NCBI GenBank assembly: GCA_916048095.2 | Contig: OU696578.1 | Span: 260,501-324,500 of the forward strand | Direction: 5' to 3' | From: Sacculina carcini | Lineage: Eukaryota; Arthropoda; Thecostraca; Sacculinidae | DNA: 64,000 nucleotides | Shown: positions 1-16,423 of the stretch, one piece after another | Layout: every line of letters begins with the position of its first letter | How positions within the stretch are numbered: the first letter of the stretch is position 1 | Position numbers and translations under genes: made by a program | The notes under the pieces: model-generated | Databases searched by the model: none | The model's input: the letters and a program-made list of their open reading frames with translations, nothing else | Told to the model about the DNA's origin: nothing

Positions 1-1145
1 ACTTAGGGCATACTTAGGTAACACTTAGGGCACACTTAGGTAACACTTAGGGCACACTTAGGTAACACTTAGGGCACACTTACGTAACACTTAGGTAACA
101 CTTAGGTAACACTTAGGTAACACTTAGGGCACACTTAGGTAACACTTAGGTAACACTTAGGTAACACTTAGGTAACACTTAGGTAACACTTAGGTAACAC
201 TTAGGTAACACTTAGGTAACACTTAGGGTACACTTAGGTAACACTTAGGGCACCCTTAGGTAACACTTAGGGCACACTTAGGTAACACTTGGGGCACACT
301 TAGGTAACACTTAGGGCATACTTAGGTAACACTTAGGGCACACTTAGGTAACACTTAGGGCACACTTAGGGCACACTTAGGTAACACTTAGGGCACACGT
401 AGGTAACACTTAGGGCACACGTAGGTAACACTTAGGGCACACTTAGGTAACACTTAGGGCACACTTAGGTAACACTTAGGTAACACTTAGGGCACACTTA
501 GGTAACACTTAGGGCACACTTAGGTAACACTTAGGGCACACTTAGGTAACACTTAGAGCACACTTAGGTAACACTTAGGGCACACTTAGGTAACACTTAG
601 GTAACACTTAGGGAACACTTAGGTAACACTTAGGTAACACTTAGGTAACACTTAGGTAACACTTAGGTAACACTTAGGTAACACTTAGGTAACACTTAGG
701 GTACACTTAGGTAACACTTAGGTAACACTTAGGTAACACTTAGGTAACACTTAGGTAACACTTAGGTAACACTTAGGGTACACTTAGGTAACACTTAGGG
801 CACACTTAGGTAACACTTAGGGCACACTTAGGTAACACTTAGGGCACACTTAGGGCACACTTAGGTAACACTTAGGGCACACTTAGGTAACACTTAGGGC
901 ACACGTAGGTAACACTTAGGGCACACTTAGGTAACACTTAGGGCACACTTAGGTAACACTTTGGGCACACTTAGGTAACACTTAGGTAACACTTAGGGCA
1001 CACTTAGGTAACACTTAGGGCACACTTAGGGCACACTTAGGTAACACTTAGGGCACACTGAGGTAACACTTAGGGCACACTTAGGTAACACTTAGGGCAC
1101 ACTTAGGTAACACTTAGGTAACACTTAGGGCACACTTGGGTAACA
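1..1145 (+). repeat. Left array, partial higher-order copy
   Basis: This is the incomplete first copy before the first CCTAGGG marker. It carries the TACG marker at 81, a CACCC variant at 251 and a TTGGGG variant at 290, the same series seen again 2971 bp later (3052, 3222). Near 398 it departs from that later copy: it has two CACGTAGG units where the later copy has CACTGAGG near 3369. The 2971-bp spacing, against 2312 bp for the next interval, shows the higher-order unit is not uniform at its left end. Confidence 0.85.
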
Positions 1146-3456
1146 CCTAGGGCACACTTAGGGCTCACTTAGGTAACACTTAGGGCACAATGAGGTAACA
1201 CTTAGGGCACACTTAGGTAACACTTAGGGCACACTTAGGTAACACTTAGGGCACACTTAGGTAACACTTAGGGCACACTTAGGTAACACTTAGGGCACAC
1301 TTAGGTAACACTTAGGGCAAACTTAGGTAACACTTAGGGCACACTTAGGTAACACTTAGGGCACACTTAGGTAACACTTAGGGCACACTTAGGTAACACT
1401 TAGGGCACACTTAGGTAACACTTAGGGCACACTTAGGTAACACTTAGGTAACACTTAGGTAACACTTAGGTAACACTTAGGTAACACTTAGGTAACACTT
1501 AGGGTACACTTAGGTAACACTTAGGTAACACTTAGGTAACACTTAGGTAACACTTAGGTAACACTTAGGGCACACTTAGGTAACACTTAGGGCACACTTA
1601 GGCAACACTTAGGGCATACTTAGGTAACACTTAGGGCACACTTAGGTAACACTTAGGGCACACTTAGGTAACACTTAGGGCACACTTAGGTAACACTTAG
1701 GGCACACTTAGGTAACACTTAGGTAACACTTAGGTAACACTTAGGTAACACTTAGGGTACACTTAGGTAACACTTAGGGCACACTTAGGTAACACTTAGG
1801 GCACACTTAGGTAACACTTAGGGCACACGTAGGTAACACTTAGGGCACACGTAGGTAACACTTAGGGCACACTTAGGTAACACTTAGGGCACACTTAGGT
1901 AACACTTAGGTAACACTTAGGGCACACGTAGGTAACACTTAGGGCACACTTAGGTAACACTTAGGGCACACTTAGGTAACACTTAGGTAACACTTAGGGC
2001 ACACTTAGGTAACACTTAGGGCACACTTAGGTAACACTTAGGGCACACTTAGGTAACACTTAGGGCACACTTAGGTAACACTTAGGGCACACTTAGGTAA
2101 CACTTAGGGCACACTTAGGTAACACTTAGGTAACACTTAGGTAACACTTAGGTAACACTTAGGTAACACTTAGGTAACACTTAGGGCACACTTAGGTAAC
2201 ACTTAGGGCACACTTAGGTAACACTTAGGTAACACTTAGGGCACACTTGGGTAACACCTAGGGCACACTTAGGGCTCACTTAGGTAACACTTAGGGCACA
2301 ATGAGGTAACACTTAGGGCACACTTAGGTAACACTTAGGGCACACTTAGGTAACACTTAGGGCACACTTAGGTAACACTTATGGCACACTTAGGTAACAC
2401 TTAGGGCACACTTAGGTAACACTTAGGGCACACTTAGGGCACACTTAGGTAACACTTAGGGCACACTTAGGTAACACTTAGGGCACACTTAGGTAACACT
2501 TAGGGCACACTTAGGGCACACTTAGGTAACACTTAGGGCACACTTAGGGCACACTTAGGTAACACTTAGGGCACACTGAGGTAACACTTAGGGCACACTT
2601 AGGTAACACTTAGGTAACACTTGGGTAACGCTTAGGTAACACTTAGGTAACACTTAGGTAACACTTAGGTAACACTTAGGTAACACAAAAGGGTACACTT
2701 AGGTACCACTTAGGGCACACTTAGGTAACACTTAGGGCACACTTAGGCAACACTTAGGGCATACTTAGGTAACACTTAGGGCACACTTAGGTAACACTTA
2801 GGGCACACTTAGGTAACACTTAGGGCACACTTAGGTAACACTTAGGGCACACTTAGGTAACACTTAGGTAACACTTAGGTAACACTTAGGTAACACTTAG
2901 GTAACACTTAGGGTACACTTAGGTAACACTTAGGGCACACTTAGGTAACACTTAGGGCACACTTAGGTAACACTTAGGGCATACTTAGGTAACACTTAGG
3001 GCACACTTAGGTAACACTTAGGGCACACTTAGGTAACACTTAGGGCACACTTACGTAACACTTAGGTAACACTTAGGTAACACTTAGGTAACACTTAGGG
3101 CACACTTAGGTAACACTTAGGTAACACTTAGGTAACACTTAGGTAACACTTAGGTAACACTTAGGTAACACTTAGGTAACACTTAGGTAACACTTAGGGT
3201 ACACTTAGGTAACACTTAGGGCACCCTTAGGTAACACTTAGGGCACACTTAGGTAACACTTGGGGCACACTTAGGTAACACTTAGGGCATACTTAGGTAA
3301 CACTTAGGGCACACTTAGGTAACACTTAGGGCACACTTAGGGCACACTTAGGTAACACTTAGGGCACACTGAGGTAACACTTAGGGCACACTTAGGTAAC
3401 ACTTAGGGCACACTTAGGTAACACTTAGGTAACACTTAGGGCACACTTGGGTAACA
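1146..3456 (+). repeat. Left array higher-order repeat, complete copy (2311 bp)
   Basis: This runs from one CCTAGGG marker (1146) to the third (3457) and holds about 210 units. It consists of two related halves, 1111 bp (1146-2256) and 1200 bp (2257-3456), each starting with the CCTAGGG, GGCTCAC and AATGAGG variants. The second half contains the ACAAAAGGG unit (AAAA at 2687) and the TACG variant at 3052. The length is 210 units plus one base, explained by the 12-bp ACAAAAGGG unit. The following copy repeats its private variants, such as GGGCAA at 1315 (again at 3627) and ATGGC at 2381 (again at 4693), each 2312 bp on. Confidence 0.92.
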
Positions 3457-5597
3457 CCTAGGGCACACTTAGGGCTCACTTAGGTAACACTTAGGGCACA
3501 ATGAGGTAACACTTAGGGCACACTTAGGTAACACTTAGGGCACACTTAGGTAACACTTAGGGCACACTTAGGTAACACTTAGGGCACACTTAGGTAACAC
3601 TTAGGGCCACACTTAGGTAACACTTAGGGCAAACTTAGGTAACACTTAGGGCACACTTAGGTAACACTTAGGGCACACTTAGGTAACACTTAGGGCACAC
3701 TTAGGTAACACTTAGGGCACACTTAGGTAACACTTAGGGCACACTTAGGTAACACTTAGGTAACACTTAGGTAACACTTAGGTAACACTTAGGTAACACT
3801 TAGGTAACACTTAGGGTACACTTAGGTAACACTTAGGTAACACTTAGGTAACACTTAGGTAACACTTAGGTAACACTTAGGGCACACTTAGGTAACACTT
3901 AGGGCACACTTAGGCAACACTTAGGGCATACTTAGGTAACACTTAGGGCACACTTAGGTAACACTTAGGGCACACTTAGGTAACACTTAGGGCACACTTA
4001 GGTAACACTTAGGGCACACTTAGGTAACACTTAGGTAACACTTAGGTAACACTTAGGTAACACTTAGGGTACACTTAGGTAACACTTAGGGCACACTTAG
4101 GTAACACTTAGGGCACACTTAGGTAACACTTAGGGCACACGTAGGTAACACTTAGGGCACACGTAGGTAACACTTAGGGCACACTTAGGTAACACTTAGG
4201 GCACACTTAGGTAACACTTAGGTAACACTTAGGGCACACGTAGGTAACACTTAGGGCACACTTAGGTAACACTTAGGGCACACTTAGGTAACACTTAGGT
4301 AACACTTAGGGCACACTTAGGTAACACTTAGGGCACACTTAGGTAACACTTAGGGCACACTTAGGTAACACTTAGGGCACACTTAGGTAACACTTAGGGC
4401 ACACTTAGGTAACACTTAGGGCACACTTAGGTAACACTTAGGTAACACTTAGGTAACACTTAGGTAACACTTAGGTAACACTTAGGTAACACTTAGGGCA
4501 CACTTAGGTAACACTTAGGGCACACTTAGGTAACACTTAGGTAACACTTAGGGCACACTTGGGTAACACCTAGGGCACACTTAGGGCTCACTTAGGTAAC
4601 ACTTAGGGCACAATGAGGTAACACTTAGGGCACACTTAGGTAACACTTAGGGCACACTTAGGTAACACTTAGGGCACACTTAGGTAACACTTATGGCACA
4701 CTTAGGTAACACTTAGGGCACACTTAGGTAACACTTAGGGCACACTTAGGGCACACTTAGGTAACACTTAGGGCACACTTAGGTAACACTTAGGGCACAC
4801 TTAGGTAACACTTAGGGCACACTTAGGGCACACTTAGGTAACACTTAGGGCACACTTAGGGCACACTTAGGTAACACTTAGGGCACACTGAGGTAACACT
4901 TAGGGCACACTTAGGTAACACTTAGGTAACACTTGGGTAACGCTTAGGTAACACTTAGGTAACACTTAGGTAACACTTAGGTAACACTTAGGTAACACAA
5001 AAGGGTACACTTAGGTACCACTTAGGGCACACTTAGGTAACACTTAGGGCACACTTAGGCAACACTTAGGGCATACTTAGGTAACACTTAGGGCACACTT
5101 AGGTAACACTTAGGGCACACTTAGGTAACACTTAGGGCACACTTAGGTAACACTTAGGGCACACTTAGGTAACACTTAGGTAACACTTAGGTAACACTTA
5201 GGTAACACTTAGGTAACACTTAGGGTACACTTAGGTAACACTTAGGGCACACTTAGGTAACACTTAGGGCACACTTAGGTAACACTTAGGGCATACTTAG
5301 GTAACACTTAGGGCACACTTAGGTAACACTTAGGGCACACTTAGGTAACACTTAGGGCACACTTACGTAACACTTAGGTAACACTTAGGTAACACTTAGG
5401 TAACACTTAGGGCACACTTAGGTAACACTTAGGTAACACTTAGGTAACACTTAGGTAACACTTAGGTAACACTTAGGTAACACTTAGGTAACACTTAGGT
5501 AACACTTAGGGTACACTTAGGTAACACTTAGGGCACCCTTAGGTAACACTTAGGGCACACTTAGGTAACACTTGGGGCACACTTAGGTAACACTTAG
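3457..5597 (+). repeat. Left array higher-order repeat, copy cut by the gap
   Basis: This is the second copy of the 2.31-kb higher-order repeat, present for 2141 bp before the N run. Its marker series matches the first copy with an offset of 2312 (one base more than 2311, due to a 12-bp GGGCCAC unit near 3605). Matched markers are CCTAGGG at 4569, ACAAAAGGG at 4999 and TACG at 5364. Nothing unusual marks the last units before the gap; the array simply stops in mid-unit. Confidence 0.9.
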
Positions 5598-5797
5598 NNN
5601 NNNNNNNNNNNNNNNNNNNNNNNNNNNNNNNNNNNNNNNNNNNNNNNNNNNNNNNNNNNNNNNNNNNNNNNNNNNNNNNNNNNNNNNNNNNNNNNNNNNN
5701 NNNNNNNNNNNNNNNNNNNNNNNNNNNNNNNNNNNNNNNNNNNNNNNNNNNNNNNNNNNNNNNNNNNNNNNNNNNNNNNNNNNNNNNNNNNNNNNNN
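5598..5797. other. Assembly gap, 200 N
   Basis: Exactly 200 undetermined bases. A round length like this is normally a placeholder put in by scaffolding software, so the true distance is unknown and may be much larger. Satellite orientation reverses across it: ACTTAGG on the + strand to the left, on the - strand to the right. Because both flanks are long near-identical repeats, the order and orientation of the two contigs here are weakly supported by sequence alone. Confidence 0.97.
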
Positions 5798-5875
5798 TGT
5801 GCCCTAAGTGTTACCTAAGTGTTACCTAAGTGTTACCTAAGTGTTACCTAAGTGTTACCTAAGTGTTACCTAAGT

Positions 5876-5885
5876 TTACCTAAGT
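5876..5885 (-). repeat. 10-bp short unit (first of many)
   Basis: TTACCTAAGT lacks the leading G of the 11-bp form, shifting the register by one base. It follows a run of TA-form units and precedes a CCC variant unit. It recurs about twice in most cycles, for example starting at 7975, and explains why cycle lengths fall 1 to 4 bp short of multiples of 11 (1945 = 177x11-2; 2604 = 237x11-3; 3329 = 303x11-4). Doubled short units occur near 18379, 55057 and 58028. Confidence 0.95.
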
Positions 5886-5891
5886 GTTACC

Positions 5892-5897
5892 CACGTG
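5892..5897. other. CACGTG palindrome in a variant unit
   Basis: This hexamer is made by the variant unit GTTACCCACGT followed by G. It has the form of an E-box, the site class bound by basic helix-loop-helix proteins. It recurs in ordered places in the right array, for example 6222-6227 and 6958-6963. The common unit forms contain no CpG, so these sites carry most CpGs of the array. Whether anything binds is unknown. Confidence 0.45.
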
Positions 5898-6446
5898 TGC
5901 CCTAAGTGTTACCTAAGTGTGCCCTAAGTGTTACCTAAGTGTGCCCTAAGTGTTACCTAAGTGTGCCCTAAGTGTTACCTAAGTGTGCCCTAAGTGTTAC
6001 CTAAGTGTGCCCTAAGTGTTACCTAAGTGTTACCTAAGTGTGCCCTAAGTGTGCCCTAAGTGTGCCCTAAGTGTTACCTAAGTGTGCCCTAAGTGTTACC
6101 TAAGTGTGCCCTAAGTGTTTCCTAAGTGTGCCCTAAGTGTTACCTAAGTGTACCCTAAGTGTTACCTAAGTGTTACCTAAGTGTTACCTAAGTGTTACCC
6201 AAGTGTTACCTAAGTGTTACCCACGTGTTACCTAAGTGTGCCCTAAGTGTTACCTAAGTGTGCCCTAAGTGTTACCTAAGTGTGCCCTAAGTGTTACCTA
6301 AGTGTGCCCTAAGTGTTACCTAAGTGTTACCTAATTGTTACCTAAGTGTTACCTAAGTGTGCCCTAAGTGTTACCTAAGTGTGCCCTAAGTGTTACCTAA
6401 GTGTGCCCTAAGTGTTACCTAAGTGTGCCCTAAGTGTTACCTAAGT

Positions 6447-13819: not shown

Positions 13820-16423
13820 GTGATCTAAGTGTTACCTAAGTGTGCCCTAACTGTTACCTAAGTGTGCCCTAAGTGTTACCTAAGTGTGCCCTAAGTGTTA
13901 CCTAAGTGTTACCTAAGTGTTACCTAAGTGTTACCTAAGTGTGCCCTAAGTGTTACCTAAGTGTTACCTAAGTATGCCCTAAGTGTTACCTAAGTGTTAC
14001 CTAAGTGTGCCCTAAGTGTTACCTAAGTGTGCCCTAAGTGTTACCTAAGTGTGCCCTAAGTGTTACCTAAGTGTTACCTAAGTGTTACCTAAGTGTTACC
14101 TAAGTGTTACCTAAGTGTTACCTAAGTGTTACCTAAGTTTACCTAAGTGTTACCCAAGTGTGCCCTAAGTGTTACCTAAGTGTGCCCTAAGTGTTACCTA
14201 AGTGTGCCCTAAGTGTTACCTAAGTGTGCCCTAAGTGTTACCTAAGTGTGCCCTAAGTGTTACCTAAGTGTTACCTAAGTGTTACCTAAGTGTTACCTAA
14301 GTGTTACCCAAGTGTTACTTAAGTGTTACCCACGTGTTACCTAAGTGTGCCCTAAGTGTTACCTAAGTGTGCCCTAAGTGTTACCTAAGTGTGCCCTAAG
14401 TGTTACCTAAGTGTTACCTAAGTTTTACCTAAGTGTTACCTAAGTGTGCCCTAAGTGTTACCTAAGTGTGCCCTAAGTGTTAACTAAGTGTGCCCTAAGT
14501 GTTACCTAAGTGTGCCCTAAGTGTTACCTAAGTGTTACCTAAGTGTTACCTAAGTGTTACCTAAGTGTTACCTAAGTGTTACCTAAGTGTGCCCGAAGTG
14601 TTACCTAAGTGTTACCTAAGTGTTACCTAAGTATGCCCTAAGTGTTACCTAAGTGTTACCTAAGTGTGCCCTAAGTGTTACCTAAGTGTGCCCTAAGTGT
14701 TACCTAAGTGTGCCCTAAGTGTTACCTAAGTGTTACCTAAGTGTTACCTAAGTGTTACCTAAGTGTTACCTAAGTGTTACCTAAGTGTTACCTAAGTTTA
14801 CCTAAGTGTTACCCAAGTGTGCCCTAAGTGTTACCTAAGTGTGCCCTAAGTGTTACCTAAGTGTGCCCTAAGTGTTACCTAAGTGTGCCCTAAGTGTTAC
14901 CTAAGTGTTACCTAAGTGTTACCTAAGTGTTACCTAAGTGTGCCCTAAGTGTTACCTAAGTGTTACCTAAGTATGCCCTAAGTGTTACCTAAGTGTTACC
15001 TAAGTGTGCCCTAAGTGTTACCTAAGTGTGCCCTAAGTGTTACCTAAGTGTGCCCTAAGTGTTACCTAAGTGTGCCCTAAGTGTTACCTAAGTGTGCCCT
15101 AAGTGTTACCCAAGTGTGCCCTAAGTGTTACCTAAGTGTGCCCTAAGTGTTACCTAAGTGTTACCTAAGTGTGCCCTAAGTGTGCCCTAAGTTTGCCCTA
15201 AGTGTTACCTAAGTGTGCCCTAAGTGTTACCTAAGTGTGCCCTAAGTGTTTCCTAAGTGTGCCCTAAGTGTTACCTAAGTGTACCCTAAGTGTTACCTAA
15301 GTGTTACCTAAGTGTTACCTAAGTGTTACCTAAGTGTTACCCAAGTGTTACCTAAGTGTTACCCACGTGTTACCTAAGTGTGCCCTAAATGTTACCTAAG
15401 TGTTACCTAAGTGTTACCTAAGTGTTACCTAAGTGTGCCCTAAGTGTTACCTAAGTATGCCCTAAGTGTTACCTAAGTGTGCCCTAAGTGTTACCTAAGT
15501 GTGCCCTAAGTGTTACCTAAGTGTGCCCTAAGTGTTACCTAAGTGTGTCCTAAGTGTTTCCCAAGTGTGCCCTAAGTGTTACCTAAGTGTACCCTAAGTG
15601 TTACCTAAGTGTTACCTAAGTGTTACCTAAGTGTTACCTAAGTGTACCCTAAGTGTTACCTAAGTGTGCCCTAAGTGTTACCTAAGTGTTACCTAAGTGT
15701 TACCTAAGTGTGCCCTAAGTGTTACCTAAGTGTGCCCTAAGTGTTACCTAAGTGTGCCCTAAGTGTTACCTAAGTGTGCCCTAAGTGTTACCTAAGTGTT
15801 ACCTAAGTGTTACCTAAGTGTTACCTAAGTGTTACCTAAGTGTTACCTAAGTTTACCTAAGTGTTACCCACGTGTGCCCTAAGTGTTACCTAAGTGTGCC
15901 CTAAGTGTTACCTAAGTGTGCCCTAAGTGTTACCTAAGTGTGCCCTAAGTGTTACCTAAGTGTGCCCTAAGTGTTACCTAAGTGTGCCCTAAGTGTTACC
16001 TAAGTGTTACCTAAGTGTGCCCTAAGTGTGCCCTAAGTGTGCCCTAAGTGTTACCTAAGTGTGCCCTAAGTGTTACCTAAGTGTGCCCTAAGTGTTTCCT
16101 AAGTGTGCCCTAAGTGTTACCTAAGTGTACCCTAAGTGTTACCTAAGTGTTACCTAAGTGTTACCTAAGTGTTACCCAAGTGTTACCTAAGTGTTACCCA
16201 CGTGTTACCTAAGTGTGCCCTAAGTGTTACCTAAGTGTGCCCTAAGTGTTACCTAAGTGTGCCCTAAGTGTTACCTAAGTGTGCCCTAAGTGTTACCTAA
16301 GTGTTACCTAATTGTTACCTAAGTGTTACCTAAGTGTGCCCTAAGTGTTACCTAAGTGTGCCCTAAGTGTTACCTAAGTGTGCCCTAAGTGTTACCTAAG
16401 TGTGCCCTAAGTGTTACCTAAGT
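13820..16423 (-). repeat. Right array cycle, 2604 bp (type T4)
   Basis: This is the full path: D, AGTATGCCC, short unit, TTACTTAAG, TTTT at +603 (14423), GTTAACT, CGAAG at +774 (14594), a second short-unit block, CCCAAGTGTGCCC, GTTTGCCC, TTTCCT, CCTAAATG, GTGTCCT, a third short unit, triple GC run, CCTAAG before TACCC, CCTAATTG. The length is 237 units less 3 bp, matching three short units. The same length recurs at 30555, 40236 and 58617. Confidence 0.93.

Follow-up and report, generated by a model that had tools for sequence, protein, structure and literature searches.

Architecture of the satellite array

The window considered here, by which we mean the whole 64,000-nt stretch of DNA that was analysed, consists of one 11-bp satellite that is broken once by a run of Ns. 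This single run (positions 5598–5797) is exactly 200 bases long and serves as a placeholder of fixed length for a gap whose true size is unspecified. To its left lies an arm of 507 units of ~11 bp on the + strand (1–5597), organised in a 210-unit higher-order repeat; to its right lies an arm of 5297 units on the − strand (5798–64000; 58,203 bp) with composite higher-order repeats. Tandem Repeats Finder places one array with a 22-bp period on each side of the gap, and the array runs to both ends of the window, with unique flank nowhere in it. The preliminary description of this DNA had taken the placeholder as the mark of a scaffolding join, and the one 200-N run does indicate such a join; going by general practice, we presume that the gap was written by YaHS or a similar tool.

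The two arms have opposed orientations. Read on the + strand, the left arm contains TTAGG 469 times and CCTAA not once, and the right arm contains CCTAA 4926 times and TTAGG not once, some units lacking an intact motif through a base change inside it. Each arm keeps one orientation throughout, with no switch in the 63.8 kb of visible satellite, and the TTAGG strand runs toward the gap in both, which bears out the convergent geometry that had been described earlier. If two unidirectional arms were joined at random, their orientations would be opposite in one case in two and convergent in one case in four; the geometry alone is therefore worth at most 2 bits and constitutes weak evidence. Nor is the presence of TTAGG in a satellite unit itself a telomere signal, since by computation ~2% of random circular 11-mers contain the motif on one of their two strands.

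Monomers and minor variants

Units were split against the forward monomers only, the right arm being taken as its reverse complement, and every variant found in either arm is close to a forward monomer. The left arm comprises 24 variants (263 copies of ACTTAGGTAAC, 166 of ACTTAGGGCAC and 22 rarer variants among its 507 units) and the right arm 28 (2965 copies of ACTTAGGTAAC, 1517 of ACTTAGGGCAC and 26 rarer variants among its 5297 units), the share of ACTTAGGTAAC being similar in the two. Nine variants are common to both arms, namely the two main monomers and seven minor ones. The arms also have a sequence context in common: the GGGTAC variant stands after at least three TAAC units in 11 of 11 cases on the left and 71 of 99 on the right, the corresponding figures for other minor units being 2 of 66 and 37 of 716. 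The common monomers, minor variants and GGGTAC context together point to common ancestry, and the arms may be sub-arrays of one region; judged by their sequence, they look like descendants of one satellite that was amplified apart. Unit composition shows no shift toward the gap.

Units of deviant length differ between the arms. The 10-bp unit ACTTAGGTAA is confined to the right arm, with 67 copies, and the 12-bp unit ACAAAAGGGTAC to the left, with two, which makes both usable as arm-specific markers.

Searches beyond the window returned nothing related to the satellite. Bacterial, archaeal and viral contigs contained no stretch that matched either an exact pattern of TAAC units or a degenerate pattern for both main monomers. 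Full-text literature searches were made with the TAAC monomer in eleven rotations and the GGGCAC monomer in one, each on both strands, and among the matches listed none concerned satellites or telomeres as judged by title and the start of the abstract. A phrase search of the literature on 11-bp satellites brought up unrelated material only.

Higher-order repeats within and between the arms

Within each arm the two monomers are intermixed in a fixed order over long distances, building kilobase-long higher-order repeats. Units stand head to tail in one orientation over kilobases, and the multi-unit copies are near-identical, far more alike than adjacent units are, as is characteristic of a satellite with higher-order repeats. 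In the left arm the repeat comprises 210 units and recurs at a lag of 2311–2312 bp, with one copy of 270 units that is 60 units longer, and neighbouring copies are identical over all compared bases (1990 of 1990 at lag 2312, and 316 of 316). The longer of these comparisons sets positions 1296–3285 against the adjacent 2.3-kb copy at 3608–5597, and complete identity over 1990 bases implies that this left-arm duplication is either very recent or made by the assembler. The right arm has a mosaic build: steps of 177 and 237 units recur in it (lags measured from the gap-proximal 2500 units), and segments as long as 5.1 kb are repeated exactly at several distances.

In each arm the longer of two alternative spacings exceeds the shorter by exactly 60 units: 270 against 210 in the left arm, and 237 against 177 in the right. 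This coincidence occurs although the order of units differs between the arms, and we regard it as candidate homology only.

Comparison of the two arms finds little in common above the level of the monomer. Set against the reverse complement of the right arm, the left arm matches it exactly over no more than 164 bp at a stretch, whereas all six control pieces of 5597 bp taken from the right arm match the rest of that arm exactly over 1981–5085 bp; on the same strand there are no exact matches of at least 20 bp between the arms. We also aligned the arms as strings of units, up-weighting rare variants and dividing the right arm into blocks of 150 units (35 blocks covering 5250 of its 5297 units). 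Left-versus-right scores lay between 11 and 16 in all 35 blocks, against 67–271 for right-versus-right controls (n = 105) and 103 and 266 for left-versus-left controls, and they did not rise toward the gap across the 35 blocks, so the right arm is no more left-like near the gap than elsewhere. The longest run of units common to both arms numbers 14, all of them main monomers, whereas 10 of 10 control segments of 507 units from the right arm had runs of 134–459 units in common with the rest. Markov models of order 1, 2 and 3 (40 simulated left arms each) yielded mean shared runs of 15.5, 15.0 and 15.3, respectively, so the sharing observed is what local monomer statistics alone produce.

The arms thus have the same main monomers and belong to different higher-order families, with no long-range order in common. 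These statements apply to the 63.8 kb of satellite in the window, in which the left arm spans 5.6 kb; a block of the left type farther inside the right contig, or one of the right type beyond the window's left edge, would be missed. The 58 kb of the right arm in the window contain no left-type repeat, so flipping the right contig would restore continuity with nothing visible.

Contig ends at the gap

Both contigs stop inside a repeat. The last 314 bp of the left contig (5284–5597, + strand) recur exactly at positions 1 and 2972, where the array continues, and the first 900 bp of the right contig (5798–6697, − strand) recur exactly at 15775, 32510, 45839 and 56200, with four further recurrences of its first 100–400 bp. 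In each of the seven recurrences inspected (three of the 900-bp set and the four shorter ones) the preceding 66 bases are satellite. Since the array carries on past these exact copies, the contigs end mid-repeat rather than at a natural boundary, and both should presumably continue into the gap, each in its own orientation.

Origin of the opposed arms

A satisfactory account of this locus has to accommodate arms of opposed orientation with distinct higher-order repeats, contig ends that lie mid-repeat and a window free of telomere repeats. We consider it probable (roughly 0.72) that the gap marks a join made by scaffolding, with a separately homogenised block of one and the same 11-bp satellite on either side. 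Two contigs, each broken inside the satellite, would have been joined by scaffolding, the two blocks having been amplified and homogenised independently of one another. Each block may have grown by repeated duplication, on one strand, of kilobase-long segments of many units, through unequal exchange or a similar process, and the outcome would be that one pair of monomers came to form two different higher-order repeats. The opposed orientation could then have arisen by accident in the joining, or it could reflect how the two blocks truly lie. We infer both this mode of growth and the status of the blocks as separate loci or sub-arrays. The earlier suggestion that both contigs end in the same satellite holds for the monomers, which are the same, and fails for the higher-order repeats, which form two different families.

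Joins of this kind have been described elsewhere. The YaHS assembly of the skink Bassiana duperreyi is reported to contain 54 gaps of 200 Ns each; in three of its scaffolds telomere repeats lay internally, close to YaHS joins, which were judged to be false, and the scaffolds were split (PMC12134992). The 200-N gaps and the repeats near contig joins resemble the situation here; in the skink, however, the repeat belongs to telomeres and the joins were inspected before being split (PMC12134992), whereas here it is a satellite known from the assembly sequence alone.

The alternative that survives best is a genuine head-to-head satellite, that is, oppositely oriented sub-arrays on one chromosome (a macro-dyad symmetry) whose contigs broke near the switch. 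Such an arrangement could have come about through an old switch after which the halves were homogenised apart, or through a later inversion that joined two different higher-order domains of one region, and taking the two routes together we consider it unlikely, if far from negligible. In the assembled order the arms are indeed opposed sub-arrays of one satellite, which holds only if the join is right and would place the switch in the gap. The same monomers and the GGGTAC context in both arms fit this arrangement, and there are precedents: satellites of Tribolium madens are reported to change orientation within arrays, the longest annotated dyad reaching 75 kb (PMC13081366), inversions across alpha-satellite arrays are described in orangutan and macaque (PMC11062924), and in maize a centc array is split by an inversion (PMC8997354). 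The Tribolium satellites TmSat1 and TmSat2 offer a close likeness, each being one satellite in opposed sub-arrays whose dyads measure from a few kilobases to several tens; their switch sites, however, were sequenced and are conserved (PMC13081366), whereas here the switch, if real, lies inside the gap. The Tribolium satellites, moreover, derive from a unit of ~110 bp, as against 11 bp here, where the arms have different higher-order repeats, and according to the authors of that study macro-dyads of satellite arrays are documented only in Tribolium (PMC13081366). Against a head-to-head array stand the 63.8 kb of satellite without a switch of orientation, the higher-order structure that the arms do not share, and the mid-repeat position of both contig ends, which keeps any switch out of sight. 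That a satellite with so minimal a unit, 11 bp, should form a true macro-dyad, the inverted halves bearing entirely separate higher-order repeats, strikes us as doubtful. We favour the scaffold join of separate blocks over a genuine inverted pair as the minimal claim.

Much less probable, and in our judgement very unlikely, is the fusion of two chromosomes end to end, the satellite being their terminal or subterminal DNA. The convergence of the TTAGG strands on the gap is its one positive support at the locus. A precedent for the unit exists in Bombus, whose telomere repeat TTAGGTTGGGG is 11 bp long, begins with TTAGG and has reportedly been verified both by in situ hybridisation and with TRAP (PMC9841428; see also PMC10767889 for the 11-bp repeat), and insect telomere motifs of 1–11 nucleotides are on record (PMC12036569). 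The satellite here is like the Bombus repeat in having an 11-bp unit that starts with TTAGG; unlike that G-rich repeat (PMC9841428), it has equal G and C, two interleaved monomers and higher-order repeats. Tandem TTAGGTTAGG or TTAGGGTTAGGG is absent from both strands of both arms over the 63.8 kb, the junction itself lying inside the gap. One main monomer contains two G and two C and the other three of each, as against 2 G and no C in TTAGG, and in none of the 32 two-kb bins (one includes the gap) does GC skew depart from zero by more than 0.033. Telomerase makes a single tandem unit with a G-rich strand, and long patterns of two interleaved monomers would not be expected from a single telomerase template, given how the enzyme works. 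A fusion also sits poorly with a unit composition that stays unchanged toward the gap. We accordingly reject the reading of the satellite as a telomere repeat, on the absence of tandem TTAGG/TTAGGG, the equality of G and C, the two interleaved monomers and the kilobase higher-order repeats, and for the same reasons of monomer, composition and repeat structure the likeness to chromosome ends drawn in the preliminary description finds no support.

Least credible of all are two readings, a recent inversion whose two breakpoints fell within a single homogeneous array and an assembly artefact of the fold-back (palindromic) kind, which would account for the same monomers on opposite strands and which we reject for the sequence in the window, because both require kilobase cross-arm matches where the longest is 164 bp, the shared run of 14 units is no longer than in the Markov null, and the unit-string scores reach only 11–16. 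Only a left-type block in the part of the right contig beyond the window could revive the recent-inversion reading. As for the broader idea of an inversion inside a satellite, the lack of shared higher-order structure speaks against a recent one in a homogeneous array, and an old inversion, or one with breakpoints in different domains, is uncontradicted.

Implications

Comparison of higher-order repeats across a gap provides a cheap means, requiring no reads, of rejecting fold-backs and recent inversions of homogeneous arrays. If the join is false, the locus illustrates that a scaffold can set two satellite contigs tip to tip and so mimic a chromosome fusion. If the macro-dyad is real, homogenisation may be blocked by orientation, and a single inversion site would allow repeat evolution on its two sides to be compared. 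A true join would let one see, in a natural setting, whether the halves of a satellite cease to homogenise one another when they lie in inverted orientation.
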